From IMG/VR virus record IMGVR_UViG_3300021959_006010, positions 211,367 to 275,366 of that record: a DNA stretch of 64,000 bases. One strand, given 5' to 3'. This document shows, one piece after another, positions 26,398 to 42,772 of this stretch. Source of the stretch: a virus. The notes beneath the pieces are model-generated. The model worked only from the letters and a program-made list of their open reading frames with translations, did no database searches and had not been told where the DNA came from. Every line of letters starts with the position of its first letter. Within the stretch, counting starts at the first letter, position 1. Made by a program: the position numbers and the translations under genes.

Positions 26398-26947
26398 ACT
26401 GTTCGCATAGTAAGTTTATATGTACTACTACTGCGAAAGCATAACTCATAGCATGTGCTTTTTTAAAGTAGTACTCATCACCTTCGGGTTTTAACCAAAC
26501 TTCTTTTTCTATCGTTTGCCAAGTTTCGTTGACAAGATGCCTCTTTGCAGGCCGTATTATCGCCAGTACTGCTGCTAACTGCTCCACTGACTTTGGCTGC
26601 AACTTCCGCAATATGTCTCCATGTCCGCTGACGTGGAATAGTAAGTTGCTGAAGTCTTCGTGCTCCAATAGTTCCCATTGTGGTTCCCTTTCCATTAGTT
26701 GTTGTAGGTGAGCTTCGTCTTTAACATCTTTATAGATACTTACATTAAGAAAATCTAATTTAAAATATCCTCTGTCTTCTGCTGTTTTGTGATCAATAGT
26801 AGATAGGTTATCTATTGGGTTATGAGGTATTTCAGTTGTGTAAACTCCAGTATTATGTTTTTTGCCCGTTTCGAGTTTAGCTACACGATGCCGTAACTTT
26901 GACAAAAGAATATCTCGATCTGCAAAATCTATATCAATATCAGGCAT
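26387..26947 (-). CDS. miniature DnaE-like protein (family C polymerase palm fragment)
   Basis: 186 residues with motifs of the bacterial DNA polymerase III alpha subunit in the right order. MPDIDIDFADR (1-11) corresponds to the palm strand with two catalytic Asp. RGYFKLDFLNVSIYK (about 59-73) corresponds to the LxFDxLGL region. QLAAVLAIIRPAKRH (about 125-139) matches the RPG helix. FKKAHAMSYAFAVVVH (about 163-178) matches the KSHxxxYA helix. The PHP, most finger and C-terminal domains of the usual about 1160-residue protein are absent, and the third catalytic Asp is not obvious. Probably not a full polymerase; possible decoy, nuclease or repair role. End of the large 33.3-26.4 kb operon. Confidence 0.7.
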   Translation of the reverse strand: MPDIDIDFADRDILLSKLRHRVAKLETGKKHNTGVYTTEIPHNPIDNLSTIDHKTAEDRGYFKLDFLNVSIYKDVKDEAHLQQLMEREPQWELLEHEDFSNLLFHVSGHGDILRKLQPKSVEQLAAVLAIIRPAKRHLVNETWQTIEKEVWLKPEGDEYYFKKAHAMSYAFAVVVHINLLCEQFSP

Positions 26948-27345
26948 TACAGTTTACCTTCTTCTCTCATTTTTGCTCTAATCTTAGTTGCACTAATGTC
27001 GTGTACATCTTCGCCTAGGTCATGCTCAGTAAAAGTATACCCGACACCCCTACCATAACTAATGTCCACAATGTTAGGCACTTCCAAAATAATATATTTC
27101 TCGCCATATAAAAATCCCTCTCTAAACAGTGCTACTCTAATATTCTTCTTTACTTCGTATACATCAAACGGATTATCATTATTGCCCATGCCTGCGTCAA
27201 CACCCTGAACGTCACGTATCATTATACATACTTGTCCAGTTTCTGCAAGTGCCTTTTTAAATAATGCAGTGTGGCCATCATGCCACGGTTGCCACCGTCC
27301 TAGCATTTGTGCTGTAGGTTTTTTTGAATCAAACTTTATTTCCAT
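26947..27345 (-). CDS. nucleotidylyltransferase (NadM/cytidylyltransferase-like)
   Basis: 132 residues, HxGH superfamily. MLGRWQPWHDGHTALFKKAL (14-33) contains WHDGH, the ATP/CTP-binding signature; VCIMIRDVQG follows, and VHDISATKIRAKM (about 115-127) is the C-terminal ISxTxIR motif. Such enzymes transfer a nucleotide to NMN, FMN, phosphocholine or similar; the substrate cannot be read here. Overlaps both neighbours by one base (TAATG). Confidence 0.85.
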   Translation of the reverse strand: MEIKFDSKKPTAQMLGRWQPWHDGHTALFKKALAETGQVCIMIRDVQGVDAGMGNNDNPFDVYEVKKNIRVALFREGFLYGEKYIILEVPNIVDISYGRGVGYTFTEHDLGEDVHDISATKIRAKMREEGKL

Positions 27346-27602
27346 TATTCGAATCCTAATGATGATAAAAACAAAATAACTAATACTACTATTATTTTTG
27401 TTAATAACATTTTTCCTGCTTCTTTGCCAACTTCTTTAGGTGCAGGTTTCCAAGTTTCCCACTTACCTAGTTTGGCCCATTCTTCTTTACTTGTCCACAA
27501 ACTGCCAACATGTTTTAACCATTCTTTAAAAGATTTGTCACTATGACGTTTACGTTCTCTTCGCCATTCTGATAATATATCAAATATATCTTTAAACGTC
27601 AT
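27345..27602 (-). CDS. small membrane protein, 85 aa
   Basis: Start set at ATG 27602 (MTFKDIFDILSEWRRER), which overlaps the kinase stop. Basic cytosolic part (HSDKSFKEWLKHVGSLW), then a single C-terminal membrane span (LLTKIIVVLVILFLSSLGF). Tail-anchored inner-membrane topology; function unknown. Confidence 0.7.
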   Translation of the reverse strand: MTFKDIFDILSEWRRERKRHSDKSFKEWLKHVGSLWTSKEEWAKLGKWETWKPAPKEVGKEAGKMLLTKIIVVLVILFLSSLGFE

Positions 27603-28026
27603 CTTTAAATTCCATATAGCGTTGTACAACTTTAAACAATTGCTGGTGTGTATCATCAAACCACTGTGCTACATGATAATTAACATATGCCTTATAAGGA
27701 CGTTCAAATATTTTATTTGTATCATCATACTCGCTTTTGTTAACAGTATCCATCCAGATAGCAAAATCAGCATCAAATACTTTGCGTATTTCGTCCGTTG
27801 GTGCTACAAAGTCTGCTATGGCAATTTTGCCTGCCATAGTAACACCGTCGGCTAAATGCCGCATTCGTTCTGCTTGACGCATTCGCCCGGACGGGCTAAA
27901 ATCCCAATCGTTATATTGTTCTCTTATATTGTCAGCATTAAGATGCACTCCGCCAAGTAACTCTGCAAACGGTTTAGCAAGAGTTGTTTTTCCTGATCCT
28001 GGCAATCCAAAAATTAATATTCTCAT
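27592..28026 (-). CDS. adenylylsulfate-kinase-like P-loop kinase
   Basis: 144 residues. Walker A GLPGSGKTT (7-15), then VHLNADNIREQYNDWDFSPS (about 27-46), which matches the CysC substrate region DxDNxR..L..DLGFS, the RMRQAERMRHLADG helix, and IAIADFVAPTDEIRK. Together these indicate an APS-kinase/zeta-toxin-like phosphotransferase. Whether it phosphorylates APS, a sugar or a nucleotide is open; the loop between strands 4 and 5 is shorter than in CysC. Overlaps both neighbours. Confidence 0.75.
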   Translation of the reverse strand: MRILIFGLPGSGKTTLAKPFAELLGGVHLNADNIREQYNDWDFSPSGRMRQAERMRHLADGVTMAGKIAIADFVAPTDEIRKVFDADFAIWMDTVNKSEYDDTNKIFERPYKAYVNYHVAQWFDDTHQQLFKVVQRYMEFKDDV

Positions 28027-37020: not shown

Positions 37021-38748
37021 TTATCTTAAACCCGCTAACTCTCTCATTCTGTTGTATTCAAAGTCTTGTTCTGGTTCTTTATAACCAAATTTTTCTGAGA
37101 CTAGGTTATTAATTTGTTCAATAAACGCCTTAGCTGGTTCTATAAACTCTTCGCCATAATCTTTCTCTACCATGGTAAGAACTGCTGTTTCTCCCTTAGG
37201 GAATTGTCCGGTGTGCCTATCAAAGTAACTTAGTATAAACTCGCCTAATGGAGTCTTTTGATCCTTTTCTAGTGTAATTTCATCACCGTCTGGACCTTGT
37301 ACCTTGTCGCCTTTTTTCTTGCCATCCATTTTAGCCTTGCGTATTGCGTGTGCATATGCATTGCCTTCACCCATGCCGTAATCGTCTATAATGTGGTCGT
37401 GCATACGTTGTTCGATTTCGTCGTGATCATCATCTGGATGCCATCCATTATCAACGGCTACATCATCATACATATCTTGTAGATAGTTTTGTATGTCCGG
37501 ACCCATTTTGCCTCTTAATGCATCTGATAGAAGCTCTCCACTGTCATCAGCTGCAATCTTTTCCATTGCTTGGATAAGCTGATCTTTCATTGAGCCTTCA
37601 GCAAACTGTCCTAATGATTGATCAAATAGCTCTTCTAAATCATCTTCTTCTTTTACACATGAGCCTTTTTCGCCACGCTTTTTACCAGGAACTTTTTTGT
37701 ATCCATCCCAGCACTTGTCATACATTTTATCGTTACCGTGACGTTCGCCTTCGTCTACTAAATCCTCTGGACCTAGTTCTTTTGCTTTATTTGCTTCGCC
37801 TACTAGATTGTAAATGTATGGAAATACATCTTTTAATTCTTCGTTAAACTGACGAATTGTAAGTTGGTCAACCCAAGAATCTTGTATGTCTTGTGGTACG
37901 TCTTCAAATACTGGAGATTCAAAATTTGCAATAGCATCTTCATAAAAACTTTTCTTTTGGAGACTTTCAATAGTTTTCTTTACAGTGCTAATGCGTTCTT
38001 TAACTACATCCATATATTCGCTTAGACTTTCTGCCATTACAGCAGAACGACCCATATAAGTTTTAAACTTACGTAGTTTGCTCATTTCTTCTGACATGCT
38101 TACAATATGTTTGCCAAAATCATCGTAAGCATTTCCGCCTTCGCTTACATGACGAGCCATTGCTCTTGCACCACTTAAATGTTTAAACGGATATTTAAAA
38201 CGTTCACCTTCGGCACTTTCGATGTAAATAGCGCCTACTTTTTGTGTACGTCCAGTAGCACTTTCTTGGTTAATATTTTCTGTGTGCTTAATAATTAAAC
38301 GTGCATTGTCTATATCTTGATAACTTACACGGCCTGTTCCGTATAGCTTCGACTCGTTCATTTGTTCGTCTCCAAAAGTATTTTTTGCAAGGTATTGATA
38401 ATCTCTTTTTTCTAAATTTGATTTATTAATATTTCTTGTATTAAAATTTAACATACGTTTTTTACTAAATTTACGCAATTCTTTTAAGAAGTTATACCAA
38501 TCTTTTTTTGATAATTCAGTTTCTCCTTCAACAACGTCGGTGGAGTACATAACTGTAATACCATTTTTTTCATCTAAACTTACACTAATTTTTCCTAAGT
38601 CAGCATCTTTGCCTTTATAAGGAAATTCAAAAAAACGAGCTTCAGTTGGTTCTGTAGTTACGTTGCCTTGCTCGTTGCCGATTGTAACTTCAGGAAACCT
38701 TCCTCGTATTTTTGAAAATAATTCTTCTGCTATGTTATTTAGATCCAT
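37021..38748 (-). CDS. large acidic virion/head-associated protein, 575 aa
   Basis: Start at ATG 38748 (or the adjacent ATG 38751). Acidic protein with helices, a central DEGERHGNDKMYDKCWDGYK segment, long Asp/Glu-rich stretches (EEDDLEELFDQSLGQFAEGS, WHPDDDHDEIEQRMHDH) and a compact C-terminal domain (TPLGEFILSYFDRHTGQFPK). Next to gp17 it is probably an internal head or portal-associated protein; I know no family name. The TAAATA late motif (38,756-38,761) overlaps the gp17 end and abuts the start codons. Confidence 0.65.
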   Translation of the reverse strand: MDLNNIAEELFSKIRGRFPEVTIGNEQGNVTTEPTEARFFEFPYKGKDADLGKISVSLDEKNGITVMYSTDVVEGETELSKKDWYNFLKELRKFSKKRMLNFNTRNINKSNLEKRDYQYLAKNTFGDEQMNESKLYGTGRVSYQDIDNARLIIKHTENINQESATGRTQKVGAIYIESAEGERFKYPFKHLSGARAMARHVSEGGNAYDDFGKHIVSMSEEMSKLRKFKTYMGRSAVMAESLSEYMDVVKERISTVKKTIESLQKKSFYEDAIANFESPVFEDVPQDIQDSWVDQLTIRQFNEELKDVFPYIYNLVGEANKAKELGPEDLVDEGERHGNDKMYDKCWDGYKKVPGKKRGEKGSCVKEEDDLEELFDQSLGQFAEGSMKDQLIQAMEKIAADDSGELLSDALRGKMGPDIQNYLQDMYDDVAVDNGWHPDDDHDEIEQRMHDHIIDDYGMGEGNAYAHAIRKAKMDGKKKGDKVQGPDGDEITLEKDQKTPLGEFILSYFDRHTGQFPKGETAVLTMVEKDYGEEFIEPAKAFIEQINNLVSEKFGYKEPEQDFEYNRMRELAGLR

Positions 38749-38755
38749 CATAATG

Positions 38756-38761
38756 TATTTA
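38756..38761 (-). promoter_or_regulatory. late promoter abutting start codon
   Basis: GATAAATACATTATGATGG on the - strand: 4 nt from TAAATA to the first ATG (38751), 7 to the second (38748). Confidence 0.6.
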
Positions 38762-40342
38762 TCAATAGTTGCTGCTAACGAAGATAGGCATAGGTGCCTC
38801 ATAATCTTCTAAATCTTCTGCTTGATTAAATGTATTATAAACTCTAGGATCCCAGTCCTTTAATACATCCATCATTCTAATTGCTAAAAGTGTTGCACTA
38901 ACTAAATCGTCAGTTAATCCAGGCTTTGCCTGATAACTAGATCCAGTTGCTACAAATCCTTTTAATTCTGATATAAAAGGTTTTGAGTGTATAACCATTT
39001 TATCGTTTTCTACCATAGTCTTTAATCGACTGCATGCTGTAACTTTAGTGCTATGCGTTGTATTAAATCCTTTACGGAACTTACGCACATGTCCTTTTCG
39101 AATAGGTTCAGACACAAATAGTCCTGGTATATTCTCTTCCCCAAAATCGTTTATAACGATTAAGCATGCTTCTCCTATGCCGTTATTTTCTACACTCCAA
39201 TATATGCCTGTAGGATTACGTGTTTCTTGTTCTATATATTTGCATATATCTGCAAGTACACGTATCTGTCCAGGTATAGCAGTTTGATTGTGTTGCCATT
39301 CTGCTACTTGTTCGTATGTAGGCAATTCAAATACTTGTATAGCAGCATAATCACCGCCTGTACCCATACTAGGATCTAAAGCAATAGCATATGTGTATTG
39401 GCTGGTAGGTTTTTTATACCAACGTGTTTGACCCATATTTAATGTAGGTGAGTCGCCTTCCATTGCTGCTAGTTTGATACTGTTAATAAGTGTTTCGTCG
39501 AATACTAGGAACTCGCATCCATATTCACGACGGAATTTTTCTTCACCAATACGTCCAATCTCTGCTGCTTTCCATTCTTCATCACGGTCTGGATGTTCGT
39601 CCCACTTTGATACAAACGATCTAAATCCATTGACACCTAGATCGTTTTCGTTTCCGTGATCATCAAAACGTTGTTCTGCTTGTTTCCAAATAGTAGCAAA
39701 TGTATCTTCGTCTGAGTTAGGTGTGCTAGTAATAATTGCTTGACCACCTGTTGCTAGTGTAGGTGATATTGAAGTCCAAAACTCTTCCGCAATGTTAGGC
39801 TGCACAAATGCAAACTCGTCACAGTATAGTAGCGAGATAGACAAACCACGTCCTGTGTTGCCTGTTGTTGTTTGACTTATAATACGCGAACCGTTTTCAA
39901 ACTCAATGCTGCCCTTGTTGTAACTTGTAACACCTGCTCTAATATGGTCTGGACAAGTTTCGTATACATAACGAATACGTGCCATAATCTCTTGCGCACC
40001 TGTGTATTTGTGTGCAGCAACAAGAATAGTCTGATCTGGATTAAACATTGCATACCAAGCAAGATAGATAGCAGCACAAGTAGTTTTACCTGTCTGTCTT
40101 GGCATCATATTAATATTAAATCGATATTTGTGATATGTTTCCATTAAACCTAACTGATACTCGTAAGGTTCAAAAAGTAATTTACCTTTTACTGGGTGTT
40201 GAATGTATGCAAAGTTTTTAGCAAAATACAAATAGCCGTCATTAGGATCCATGCAAGCAGCAAGTTCTTCAATTTGTGCATTTGTATATGTTTCTTTAGT
40301 ATTAGCTTTTTTAGTTAATACGCCATCTAATGATTTCGACAT
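38762..40342 (-). CDS. 17: terminase large subunit gp17
   Basis: 526 residues. Packaging ATPase and headful nuclease. Start at ATG 40342 (MSKSLDGVLTKK), not the in-frame TTG farther up that overlaps the late promoter. Q-motif-like FEPYEYQLGLMETY, Walker A PRQTGKTT (81-88), Walker B LLYCDEFAF, coupling motif ITSTPN, then the RNase-H-like nuclease with IALDPSMGTGGDYAAI, SVENNGIGEACLIVI and GLTDDLVSATLLAI carrying the Asp/Glu cluster. T4 gp17 is 610 residues; the C-terminal part is shorter. Confidence 0.95.
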   Translation of the reverse strand: MSKSLDGVLTKKANTKETYTNAQIEELAACMDPNDGYLYFAKNFAYIQHPVKGKLLFEPYEYQLGLMETYHKYRFNINMMPRQTGKTTCAAIYLAWYAMFNPDQTILVAAHKYTGAQEIMARIRYVYETCPDHIRAGVTSYNKGSIEFENGSRIISQTTTGNTGRGLSISLLYCDEFAFVQPNIAEEFWTSISPTLATGGQAIITSTPNSDEDTFATIWKQAEQRFDDHGNENDLGVNGFRSFVSKWDEHPDRDEEWKAAEIGRIGEEKFRREYGCEFLVFDETLINSIKLAAMEGDSPTLNMGQTRWYKKPTSQYTYAIALDPSMGTGGDYAAIQVFELPTYEQVAEWQHNQTAIPGQIRVLADICKYIEQETRNPTGIYWSVENNGIGEACLIVINDFGEENIPGLFVSEPIRKGHVRKFRKGFNTTHSTKVTACSRLKTMVENDKMVIHSKPFISELKGFVATGSSYQAKPGLTDDLVSATLLAIRMMDVLKDWDPRVYNTFNQAEDLEDYEAPMPIFVSSNY

Positions 40343-40346
40343 ATTG

Positions 40347-40352
40347 TATTTA
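40347..40352 (-). promoter_or_regulatory. late promoter abutting gp17 start
   Basis: AGTAAATACAATATG on the - strand, 4 nt from TAAATA to the gp17 ATG. It starts within the T-run of the upstream terminator. Confidence 0.6.
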
Positions 40353-40355
40353 CTC

Positions 40356-40382
40356 AAAAAAATAGCGTCCGAAGACGCTATT
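40356..40382 (-). terminator. UUCG terminator before gp17
   Basis: On the - strand AATAGCGTC-TTCG-GACGCTATT followed by a run of T. Closes the 41,020 gene and precedes the gp17 late promoter. Confidence 0.85.
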
Positions 40383-40402: not shown

Positions 40403-41020
40403 TTATTTTTTAAACTGTGGAGGTACTTCACCTTTTTTAGGCTTGCTACCTTTTTTCTTACCTGCGTGATCGTCTTCGCCTGGCTTCTTGTCTGCCCAGT
40501 CTGGAACACCGTCACCGTCTGCATCTGGTTTTTTCTTTTCTGCTAGTGCAGCATAAAGCTCTTTTGCGATAGCTTCTACAGCCATTGCATTGTCGCCATC
40601 TTGTGCTTTTGCATATGCTTTCTTTTCTCTATTAAGGCCGCCACTTAGATCTTTTGTCATTAGTTTATGATCTGAATATTCTTCTTCTGGTTCGTTTTCG
40701 TATTCTTCAAGATCGTCTTCGGCTGCATCGGCATATACTTCGTCTGCTTCCATTTCTGGCTCGTCTACAATATCACGTAGTCTTTCCATGTCCATACGCA
40801 TTGGCATCATCTCAGCAGACGCAGGTTTTGCATCTCCTAATCCTGCTTGTTGCATCATACGCATTAGATCTGCAACGTGTTCTTTACCACTTGCGTTCAT
40901 GCTTACATTTACTGTTACAGGATTACCTTGATCCATTGGTGCCGGAGCAGCCATAGGACCTTCATCCATTCCGCACTCTTCAATGTAGTCCATTGATTCG
41001 ATTAGTTTCTTCATTTCCAT
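40403..41020 (-). CDS. internal head protein candidate, 205 aa
   Basis: N-terminus MEMKKLIESMDYIEE resembles the capsid-targeting sequence of T4 internal proteins. The middle is Met/Pro/Ala-rich, followed by acidic EDDLEEYENEPEEEYSD and a C-terminal DADGDGVPDWADKKPGEDD, a thrombospondin-type-3-like calcium-binding motif, then Lys-rich end. Probably packaged in the prohead (inference). Read from the operon starting at 41,582 or 42,772. Confidence 0.6.
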   Translation of the reverse strand: MEMKKLIESMDYIEECGMDEGPMAAPAPMDQGNPVTVNVSMNASGKEHVADLMRMMQQAGLGDAKPASAEMMPMRMDMERLRDIVDEPEMEADEVYADAAEDDLEEYENEPEEEYSDHKLMTKDLSGGLNREKKAYAKAQDGDNAMAVEAIAKELYAALAEKKKPDADGDGVPDWADKKPGEDDHAGKKKGSKPKKGEVPPQFKK

Positions 41021-41024
41021 AGTA

Positions 41025-41582
41025 TTAACCTCCTACTACCGCTTTTGAGTTTTCGCTAGCGTCAATATCCTTGCTCTCACCAGTCGGTGCTGCGGCAGCG
41101 GGATCGTGCTCATTTTCTTTTCTAGCTTTTTCTAATTCTTTAAGAAGCTCCATAACTCTGTTACCAGCTACTGATTCTTGCGCACTCTCATCTTTTAACT
41201 CTTCAGTAGTTAGCATTGCTTCGTATGGTTGATCGTCTTTAGCTTCTTGATATTCTTCTTGTGGTTCGTTTGGACTTCTTACAATAATGTGTGACTGATC
41301 AACTAAACAACATTTACCTACATATTCTTGTAATACTTGAGTTGTTGTTGGATAGTTTAATTCAAACTCAAAATATGTTACTTCCATATTTTGTAACTGT
41401 GGAAAGTCTAACGGACGTTCTTGTATAGGAGTCTTTTTACCAGCAGTTATATTAGACACTTTATATTTTTCTAAGCATGTTTTAAGATGCTCTTGAAAAT
41501 TTTCTGGTAATTCTCCTGCTACACCTACTTTGAATGGGTAGGTTTTCTTTGATTCTGTTATGTATTCTTTTAAAGATTTCAT
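41025..41582 (-). CDS. internal head protein candidate, 185 aa
   Basis: N-terminus MKSLKEYITESK is very like the T4 internal-protein (IPI/IPIII) capsid-targeting sequence, which ends at a gp21 protease site. A folded middle (TYPFKVGVAGELPENFQEHL ... MEVTYFEFELNYPT) is followed by an acidic, disordered tail. Two cysteines adjoin (KCCLVD). Probably enters the prohead with the DNA-packaging proteins. Late promoter at 41,609-41,614. Confidence 0.65.
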   Translation of the reverse strand: MKSLKEYITESKKTYPFKVGVAGELPENFQEHLKTCLEKYKVSNITAGKKTPIQERPLDFPQLQNMEVTYFEFELNYPTTTQVLQEYVGKCCLVDQSHIIVRSPNEPQEEYQEAKDDQPYEAMLTTEELKDESAQESVAGNRVMELLKELEKARKENEHDPAAAAPTGESKDIDASENSKAVVGG

Positions 41583-41607: not shown

Positions 41608-42279
41608 CTATTTATCTTTATCAATAATGTTTTCTTTCAAATATTTATATATTATACGGTGTGCATCCCTGTTAGGATGATAACCGTCTTCTTTAAAATA
41701 GTCTGATGCTTGTATAGATTCCCATATTTTGTTTTGTTCCCACATCCAATTTACTGTTTCTTTGTCTATAGTTAAAGGATATTTATTTCCTAAATGGAAG
41801 AAAAACTCGTACTCTTTTGCTATATCCGGAAGTAGTAATTTTAAAATACTTGGTATTGCAACACATAAATTATCATAATTAATTACAGGAATGTTTGACA
41901 AGCCGCCTAATAGATATATTTTTTTATCAAGTGTATTAAGTTTAGTAAAAAAATTATTAAGAATATCGGTGTGTCTTTGTATAATGGTTTCTTTACAAAA
42001 AGGCGATAGGTTAAAAAAATTTTCTTGTTGTGTATATTTGTTAGTTACAGACCTATTAGTACAGGTTACAAATACAAAAATAAAATCGTAAAAATCTAAA
42101 TTTTCTTTTTTTATATTCTCTAATATTTCTTCTAAAGATCCGCCTGCTTTTGAAATGTTTTTTACATTACTTCCTGAATCGTCTAAATATTGTTCTAAGC
42201 CGTAATGTGTAACTTCTAGCTTTTTATTCCACTCTCCTCTTCCCCAACTATCGCCGGCAATAAGAATGTTATGAGCCAT
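41608..42279 (-). CDS. SGNH/GDSL-type hydrolase
   Basis: 223 residues. Block I GDSWGRG (about 8-14, nucleophile Ser), a middle with GGSLEEILENI, and block V DGYHPNRDAHR near the end (Asp and His of the catalytic triad) support an esterase/acetylhydrolase fold. Block III Asn may be in FVTCTNRSV. SGNH enzymes deacetylate polysaccharides or lipids; here it sits between the terminase small subunit and head proteins, so it may ride on the virion. Its neighbours are packaging genes, making it a cargo (moron) insertion candidate. Confidence 0.78.
   Translation of the reverse strand: MAHNILIAGDSWGRGEWNKKLEVTHYGLEQYLDDSGSNVKNISKAGGSLEEILENIKKENLDFYDFIFVFVTCTNRSVTNKYTQQENFFNLSPFCKETIIQRHTDILNNFFTKLNTLDKKIYLLGGLSNIPVINYDNLCVAIPSILKLLLPDIAKEYEFFFHLGNKYPLTIDKETVNWMWEQNKIWESIQASDYFKEDGYHPNRDAHRIIYKYLKENIIDKDK
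41609..41614 (-). promoter_or_regulatory. late promoter
   Basis: - strand GATAAATAG, about 26 nt before ATG 41582, with an SD (AGGAT) in between. It overlaps the end of the SGNH gene. Confidence 0.55.
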
Positions 42280-42772
42280 CACCTTTTAAACCTTTAAGTT
42301 TTTCTAAAAGGCTATTACGGTCAGTAACAACGTATCCTTCTCCGTTTACTATACCATTATCAGATGTAGCGTTGTCGTTGTCTAATTTTTCTTTTTTAAG
42401 TTGCAGTTCTACCATTTTAAGTTTTTTGTCTAGTTTAGCAACTTTGGCATCTAAGTTAGTTTTTAGCATATTGCCAGCTACTTCAAACACACGCCCGGAA
42501 TATCGACTTTCAACATTCATACCGAGGTCCATTAAATCTTCGTATGCTGCCATAGCTTTATCGGCAACCTCATTTAATTCTTTATCAGCTAATTCACCTA
42601 AGCCTTTTACTTGCGGAAGTGCAGCATTAATTTTATCTAACTCTGCAATATCTCGAAATGCTTCTGCACGTTCTAGATCATGTTTTTCTTGTTCAGCTTC
42701 TTGTGCTTCGGCTTGTTCTATAATTTCTTTAGAATCAGGTAGGTTTAATAAATCTTCTAATTTTTTAGTCAT
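42269..42772 (-). CDS. 16: terminase small subunit gp16 (probable)
   Basis: 167 residues, T4 gp16 164. Almost wholly helical and charged, with a central coiled coil (FEVAGNMLKTNLDAKVAKLD, then KLKMVELQLKKEKL). Identified by length, helical pattern and position in the packaging group with gp17 and the gp4-like gene; sequence identity to T4 is not obvious. gp16 recognises DNA and stimulates gp17. Confidence 0.65.
   Translation of the reverse strand: MTKKLEDLLNLPDSKEIIEQAEAQEAEQEKHDLERAEAFRDIAELDKINAALPQVKGLGELADKELNEVADKAMAAYEDLMDLGMNVESRYSGRVFEVAGNMLKTNLDAKVAKLDKKLKMVELQLKKEKLDNDNATSDNGIVNGEGYVVTDRNSLLEKLKGLKGDGS

Follow-up and report, generated by a model that had tools for sequence, protein, structure and literature searches.

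Two adjacent genes of a marine jumbo phage related to PA5oct, which we call P1 and P2, each begin with a short leader of the kind found on T4 prohead proteins, the capsid-targeting sequence (CTS). We favour, with moderate confidence, the reading that both gene products belong to the prohead core (inner head) of a T4-superfamily jumbo phage, that the T4-type leader docks them there, and that in this phage a gp21-type protease trims them. We would class P1 as a conserved protein of the inner head and P2 as an acidic protein of the core type whose cassettes are exchangeable. The leader sequences are conserved among relatives, the gene slot is fixed, relatives encode a gp21-family protease and carry leader-type sites on head proteins, and homologues of P1 occur in virions. 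From this we infer that P1 and P2 are targeted and cleaved, that they lie inside the head, and that they serve in assembling the core or in filling the head.

Gene order around P1 and P2

The window analysed here (64,000 nucleotides) covers positions 211367-275366, the right-hand end, of a linear virus record of 275,366 bases whose large terminase is nearest to that of the PA5oct group. Read along the coding strand, the genes run tail sheath, two tail tube proteins, an unknown, head closure, small terminase, an SGNH-like protein, P1, P2 and large terminase, which places P1 and P2 between the two terminase genes (Table 1). The head closure gene upstream of the small terminase is gp4-like with a TnsA-like fold. 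P2 starts 4 bases past the P1 stop, and a ribosome-binding-like site precedes both ATGs (score 4 for P1 and 6, a strong site, for P2).

The SGNH-hydrolase-like gene (window 41608-42282, minus strand; family name from sequence reading) is inserted between the small terminase and P1, had no Pfam match, and had no tblastn match in any of 152 P1-related loci. Elsewhere in the window, two ORFs of 144 and 132 aa (26947-28026, minus strand) match the N- and C-terminal parts of kinase family phrog_10255 and represent either a split gene or a frameshift.

Table 1. Coordinates of the genes and protein segments discussed, counted from the first base of the window.
Feature	Position	Strand	Description and basis
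Terminase small subunit	42269..42772	minus	phrog_445, E 5e-4; phrog_16202, E 6e-13
P1	41025..41582	minus	185 aa; conserved virion/head structural protein with CTS-like leader; ORF list, phrog_14802
P1 leader MKSLKEYITE, residues 1-10	41553..41582	minus	proposed cut after E10; T4 ipIII/ipII alignment, L8/E10 conservation, AF2 helix
P1 folded domain, residues 15-102	41277..41540	minus	ferredoxin-like strand-helix-strand; AF2 blocks mostly pLDDT 71-91
P2	40403..41020	minus	205 aa; acidic, mostly disordered, mosaic, with CTS-like leader; ORF list
P2 leader MEMKKLIE, residues 1-8	40997..41020	minus	proposed cut after E8; leader-type site in 52/53 distinct P2s
P2 conserved core, residues 34-61 (PVTVNVSMNASGKEHVADLMRMMQQAGL)	40838..40921	minus	invariant alignment columns; helix 46-61, low confidence
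P2 L-A-E161/K junction	40538..40546	minus	possible second gp21-type site, ending helix 145-161; A-A-L-x-E-K-type junction in 50/53
P2 Lys-rich C-terminal cassette	40406..40537	minus	net +4, exchanged between relatives; comparison of C-termini
Terminase large subunit	38762..40357	minus	family match; 54% identity to PA5oct group

The leader and body of P1

A first-pass annotation had singled out these genes for T4-like N-termini and suggested looking for a cleavage site near the gp21 consensus. The ORF list confirmed both minus-strand reading frames and the N-termini quoted for them, and the resemblance to T4 held up, with P1 of the ipIII type and P2 more like gp67 than like the internal proteins. 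The sites are ITE/S in P1 and LIE/S in P2 (slashes mark proposed cuts), which fit the gp21 rule L/I-X-E (PMC9026906). P1 starts MKSLKEYITE/SKK (full start MKSLKEYITESKKTYPF), carrying L4, Y7, I8 and E10, and aligns with the T4 ipIII leader over its full 10 residues without gaps. It ranked second among the 364 gene starts of the record for similarity to ipIII residues 1-10 (BLOSUM62), and none of 1414 internal-Met 10-mers from the same record reached its score. The gene in first place (MKKYEEIIAR, record 75134-75817) does not have the E, so at least one probable false positive arises when similarity is the only criterion. In the T4 genome the corresponding leaders read MKTYQEFIAE/AR (ipII), MKTYQEFIAE/AS (ipIII), MKTFKEF...ITE/AT (ipI), MEGLIE/AI (gp67) and MAKINELLRE/ST (gp24). 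The T4 CTS takes up the N-terminal 10-19 residues, with hydrophobic or aromatic residues at 4 and 7. P1 shares with it (IPI, IPII and IPIII, and the leaders of Alt, gp22, gp24 and gp67) its length, hydrophobic positions 4 and 7, an L/I-x-E end and a small residue after the cut.

Leader conservation was counted on distinct sequences, as the 152 P1 loci contain contigs fetched twice. L8 and E10 were present in all 57 distinct P1 homologues (55 marine, 121Q and GAP32), which are mutually related and so do not amount to 57 independent observations. Position 9 was T in 48, N in 7 and L in 2, and position 11 was S in 52, A in 3, K in 1 and L in 1. We also read the leader in 14 reference phages, 13 of them from the tblastn records described below plus Phosso, which is absent from that list. 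Position 4 was L or F and position 7 was I, Y or F in 14/14, and position 8 was L in 13/14, while position 10 was E in 5, D in 5, A in 2 and S in 2. The first 34 residues of the CBB and XbC2 proteins are identical except for E10/D10. The window's P1 has a cleavable I-T-E, which the PA5oct and RaK2 homologues lack. The RaK2 and Phosso leaders were read from an internal ATG (the RaK2 annotation begins 24 residues upstream, and its relative Muenster is annotated at this ATG), and that of Atu_ph07, MKTLQDYLTE/SKK, from an ATG upstream of the annotated start.

According to PMC9026906, residues 1-10 of IPIII are enough for targeting, residues 4 and 7 affect targeting and residues 8 and 10 processing, and D10 blocks processing while targeting is kept. 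Since E10 is absent in 9 of the 14 reference phages, cleavage is not a conserved property of P1. Constant targeting positions alongside a free trimming position fit a targeting signal with optional removal, and argue against P1 as cargo that needs release; the pattern is also compatible with a plain conserved helix. The switch at position 10 (E to D, A or S, with 4 and 7 kept) offers a clear test of whether targeting and trimming separate in nature.

By profile, P1 falls in phrog_14802, a head and packaging family named 'virion structural protein' (E 1.5e-13, residues 1-143). P1 shows both marks of that family, the profile match over the domain and the same gene slot. Homologues were found by tblastn in 54 phage records, nearly all of jumbo size, with two Klebsiella phage records (86 and 110 kb) as exceptions; in one of the 54, SD-1_S14, the alignment starts only at residue 37. 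They follow gp4 and a small-terminase-like gene in PA5oct, RaK2, GAP32, Vibrio 2.275 and 121Q, and the phrog_14802 relatives among them include PA5oct gp282, CBB_210, RaK2 ORF047, GAP32 gp204 and 121Q gp557, all in that slot. PA5oct gp282 is marked in its record as found in virions by ESI-MS/MS. For CBB_210, Table 4 of PMC5259590 gives 13 unique peptides and 60.5% coverage in virion mass spectrometry; we equated this protein (record NC_041878 gp210) with P1 from the order of the genes, CBB_208 being gp4. Whole-virion mass spectrometry cannot separate head from tail location.

P1 is acidic (pI 4.8), and its body has a median identity of 69% over 150 full-coverage loci (loci counted, repeated contigs included). 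In the AF2 model (53 sequences, mean pLDDT 68), the leader forms a separate helix at 4-10 (block pLDDT 62), followed by the ferredoxin-like domain, disorder and a helix at 135-158. Fold matches (Foldseek, VIA-align 2) were only ferredoxin/ACT/S6-like, with Z 7-7.7 (best 7.7), which indicates a common arrangement. Matches in a viral structure library were uncharacterised phage proteins, a sequence search for solved structures returned none, and the 'internal head protein' family phrog_2667 reached only E 0.042. P1 is a known but unexplained structural protein.

The leader and mosaic body of P2

P2 begins MEMKKLIE/SMD (full start MEMKKLIESMDYIEECG). Its LIE/S fits the L/I-x-E rule in a shorter register than in P1, nearer that of T4 gp67 than that of the T4 internal proteins, and positions 4 and 7 are not directly comparable. 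Relatives of P2 follow P1 in marine contigs. Keeping only loci where the core motif was present and an ATG lay close to the P1 stop left 108 of 150 complete P1 loci with 52 distinct P2s, or 53 with that of the window; a P2 type with a different N-terminus (L067) was excluded. [LI]xE[ASGN] lay within the first 36 residues in 52/53, against a shuffle mean of 6.8 and maximum of 14 (500 shuffles). Most P2s have LIES, LLES or ILEN at residues 6-10. A variant starting M.MK.LIQQM has L[NT]E[AS] or INEA instead, ending near residue 23-26, and the single exception, L172, reads LTE/D.

Between its conserved marks P2 is a mosaic, with relatives ranging from 200 to 633 residues that gain and lose glycine-zipper stretches, CxxC segments, DGDG segments, GRGRGK repeats and several Lys-rich tails. 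Among 24 locus pairs with P1 at least 95% identical, 10 differed by at least 40 gap columns in P2. Glycine-zipper-like stretches (GALAGGALGSAAGAATGA) occur mid-P2 in L008, L010, L041, L055 and L073 and are absent from the window's P2. P2 is acidic (pI 4.5) and mostly disordered (AF2 mean pLDDT 53), and holds four L/I-x-E sites. Beyond the leader, an L-x-E in the junction A-A-L-x-E-K recurs in 50/53 with a changing middle residue, and the preceding helix stops there in the low-confidence AF2 model. Searches of the phage collection by tblastn and of PHROGs gave no match, and neither P2 nor P1 matched a defence-related family in Pfam or PHROGs. By eye, the start of P2 resembles GAP32 gp208 and RaK2 gp051 (KLMES-D-I) and its middle resembles GAP32 gp207; hhalign probabilities for gp207 and gp208 were only 38 and 13, so we dropped homology and keep the resemblance as a lead. 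RaK2 gp051, with its P2-like leader, was found in virions by mass spectrometry (PMC3622015).

The acidic composition, low order, several L/I-x-E sites and gp67-like LIE start recall T4 gp22, gp67 and gp68, whose fragments mostly leave the head after core proteins are cut (PMC9026906). It is possible, though we lean against it, that P2 is a scaffold or core filler of this kind, largely chopped up and lost, and that P1 alone stays in the virion. The disorder, the four sites and the junction kept in 50/53 would all suit such a role. P2 differs from the T4 proteins, however, in showing no sequence match to them and in its gene place, relatives already hold scaffold, 67-like and 68-like genes beside portal and protease, and PA5oct gp281, the positional counterpart of P2, was found in virions.

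Under the prohead-core reading that we prefer for both proteins, each short helical leader (residues 1-10 of P1, 1-8 of P2) would dock its protein onto the prohead core through a hydrophobic face (L4 and Y7 in P1). A gp21-family protease would then cut after E10 in P1 and E8 in P2, with a possible further cut in P2 at LAE161/K. The products would be an acidic ferredoxin-like P1* and P2 fragments, in or out of the mature head, and relatives with D, A or S at position 10 would have a P1 that is targeted and left untrimmed.

Head genes, competing readings and leader-like starts elsewhere

Profile searches with PF03420 (gp21) and PF07068 (Gp23) found no match in the phage's own 275 kb record, probably because its head cluster lies beyond the contig end, and tblastn of the PA5oct portal, protease, scaffold and capsid against pieces of the record found none. 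A ClpP-like protein with a 67% match in the record (gp212, annotated 'head maturation protease') was considered and set aside, as it reads as not of the gp21 type. PA5oct encodes both families (gp331, PF03420, E 5e-24; gp329, PF07068, E 1e-96). A capsid gene was also present in 4 of 20 marine records carrying P1, where the head cluster runs portal, 67-like, 68-like, gp21, scaffold, capsid. The gp21 homologue was seen in three of the four, the stretch read in the other covering scaffold and capsid only, and the labels 67-like and 68-like reflect where the genes lie and their homology to PA5oct gp333 and gp332, not a match to T4. L/I-x-E-type sites lie near the capsid start (MSELLE/SRW...YLSE/TATAG) and the scaffold start of these marine relatives. 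Giant phages of the phiKZ/SPN3US type likewise have head proteins cut after glutamate by a prohead protease, but for SPN3US PMC10052503 describes A-x-E and mostly long propeptides, in contrast to the short leaders with L/I-x-E here.

At their C-termini, scaffolds of marine relatives and of PA5oct, like Phosso gp412, finish with RRLAG[IL]; similarly, a 593-aa ORF of the phrog_13484 virion-protein family (window 37021-38802, minus strand) ends in RMRELAGLR. A C-terminal motif shared by core proteins is possible; a search for it gave one match in each of three gene sets, and we dropped it.

A T4-type signal is the likely reading of the leaders, yet an N-terminal amphipathic helix could look alike without targeting anything. 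The leader could be a normal helix at the N-terminus of a structural protein (head, neck or packaging-linked), making contact with a neighbour in the virion without serving as a targeting signal or being cut. The variation at P1 position 10 among E, D, A and S would agree with this, as would the place of P1 among neck, tail and terminase genes, away from portal and protease, and the presence in virions of PA5oct gp282, which reads YYDAS. We nevertheless judge it unlikely, given that L/I-x-E/S or A is nearly always kept in the 57 distinct P1s (E10 in 57, S/A11 in 55), that the P2 site persists despite moving from LIES at 8 to L[NT]E[AS] at 23-26, that the T4 targeting positions 4 and 7 are the constant ones, and that similar leaders occur on unrelated proteins.

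The first-pass annotation had gone further, taking both proteins for anti-defence candidates injected with the DNA. The signal half of its interpretation is supported, with a T4-type leader and gp21-type site on both proteins, a gp21-family protease in relatives and P1 homologues in virions, while the anti-defence step is unsupported by anything that we found. That P1 or P2 is an injected effector blocking host defences, as T4 IPI blocks GmrSD, is very improbable: the leader type, the injection of T4 IPI and IPIII with IPI acting against restriction (PMC3012670, PMC9391042) and the fast turnover of P2 cassettes would suit it, but P1 has a conserved body in a fixed, syntenic slot across jumbo genera, for which we rejected this as its main reading, both proteins are acidic, and P2, although variable, is mostly disordered with no defence-related match. 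Several P1 relatives moreover have D, A or S at the position that must be E for cleavage, so conservation does not extend to release as injectable cargo. The T4 internal proteins are by contrast basic (PMC9026906), with highly diverse bodies and conservation limited to the leader (likewise PMC3012670). P1 thus carries on a conserved acidic structural protein what T4 carries on variable basic cargo, its position 10 varies among relatives, and neither P1 nor P2 showed body homology to IPI, IPII or IPIII in the family searches; P2 does vary, by cassettes.

If the prohead-core reading of P1 and P2 is right, the T4 head-loading signal would have a range reaching well past the T4-like phages that infect enteric hosts, taking in abundant marine jumbo phages, and would be readable from sequence. 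Among the open-access papers that our searches covered, with limited search terms, we found no description of a CTS in RaK2-like, PA5oct-like or marine T4-superfamily jumbo phages.

Leader-like starts elsewhere were assessed on our own greedy gene calls. The loose pattern ^M.{1,8}[LI].E[ASG] matched 14/364 genes of the record (shuffle mean 5.1, maximum 12; 200 shuffles), a second pattern matched 2/364 (mean 0.4, maximum 3), and a third matched 10/364 against a mean of 8.0, with no excess. Compared with internal Met positions of the record, a strict IPIII-type pattern (A) was not enriched at gene starts (2/364 vs. 4/1414, P = 0.36), pattern B was (10/364 vs. 6/1414, P = 3e-4), and so was an MK-type start (14/364 vs. 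5/1414, P = 8e-7), a pattern shaped after its matches had been seen. Pattern A matched 3/438 genes in PA5oct and 2/201 in G001, and B matched 2/438 and 4/201. Two of the three PA5oct proteins with the strict pattern, MKINDIITE/G and MKIKDILVE/S, are in virions. For four leader patterns in PA5oct, with 87 of 93 listed MS genes matched to a gene call, frequencies in MS and non-MS genes were 9/87 vs. 17/351 (P = 0.05), 4/87 vs. 3/351 (P = 0.03), 6/87 vs. 5/351 (P = 0.01) and 4/87 vs. 12/351 (P = 0.40), uncorrected for four tests. Several patterns were tried, some without enrichment, and the wider set of apparent leaders provides leads, not proof.

More speculatively, the T4-type leader may serve this lineage as a transferable tag that addresses an entire inner-head payload, made up of P1, P2, an apparent enzyme pair, very basic small proteins and several unknowns. 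The head would then carry the enzymes and deliver them together with the DNA, and P1 would represent a natural set of variants, all targeted but some trimmed and others not (E10/D10), that repeats the T4 mutant result. We hold this extension only tentatively and think it doubtful as a whole; a reliable leader would name candidate injected enzymes in cyanophages and jumbo phages that are otherwise 'hypothetical'. Loose-pattern genes of the record form one group at 92-99 kb and another at 204-207 kb. Among them, or next to them and starting in a similar way, are genes for a DUF6267 protein (E 6e-25), a cytidylyltransferase-like protein (PF01467, E 1e-4) and a virion structural protein of phrog_11854. 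Two small, very basic proteins encoded side by side (record G000 203890-204503, L097:13890-14503, minus strand) have leader-like starts (MRASEFEIEE/G), which their Salicola SCTP-2 homologue lacks. The DUF6267 and cytidylyltransferase-like proteins are adjacent (record G000 96577-98565, L092:1577-3565, minus strand) and both have leader-like starts (MRFSEFRPILTE/A and MLLRELFE/G, respectively). The pair also occurs in cyanophages, where the DUF6267 protein had a leader in none of the four phages read and the cytidyltransferase had none in S-CAM4 and MED4-213 and one in the other two, S-WAM1 (MRFRQFIIE/A) and P-TIM40 (MRFLDFIKE/A).
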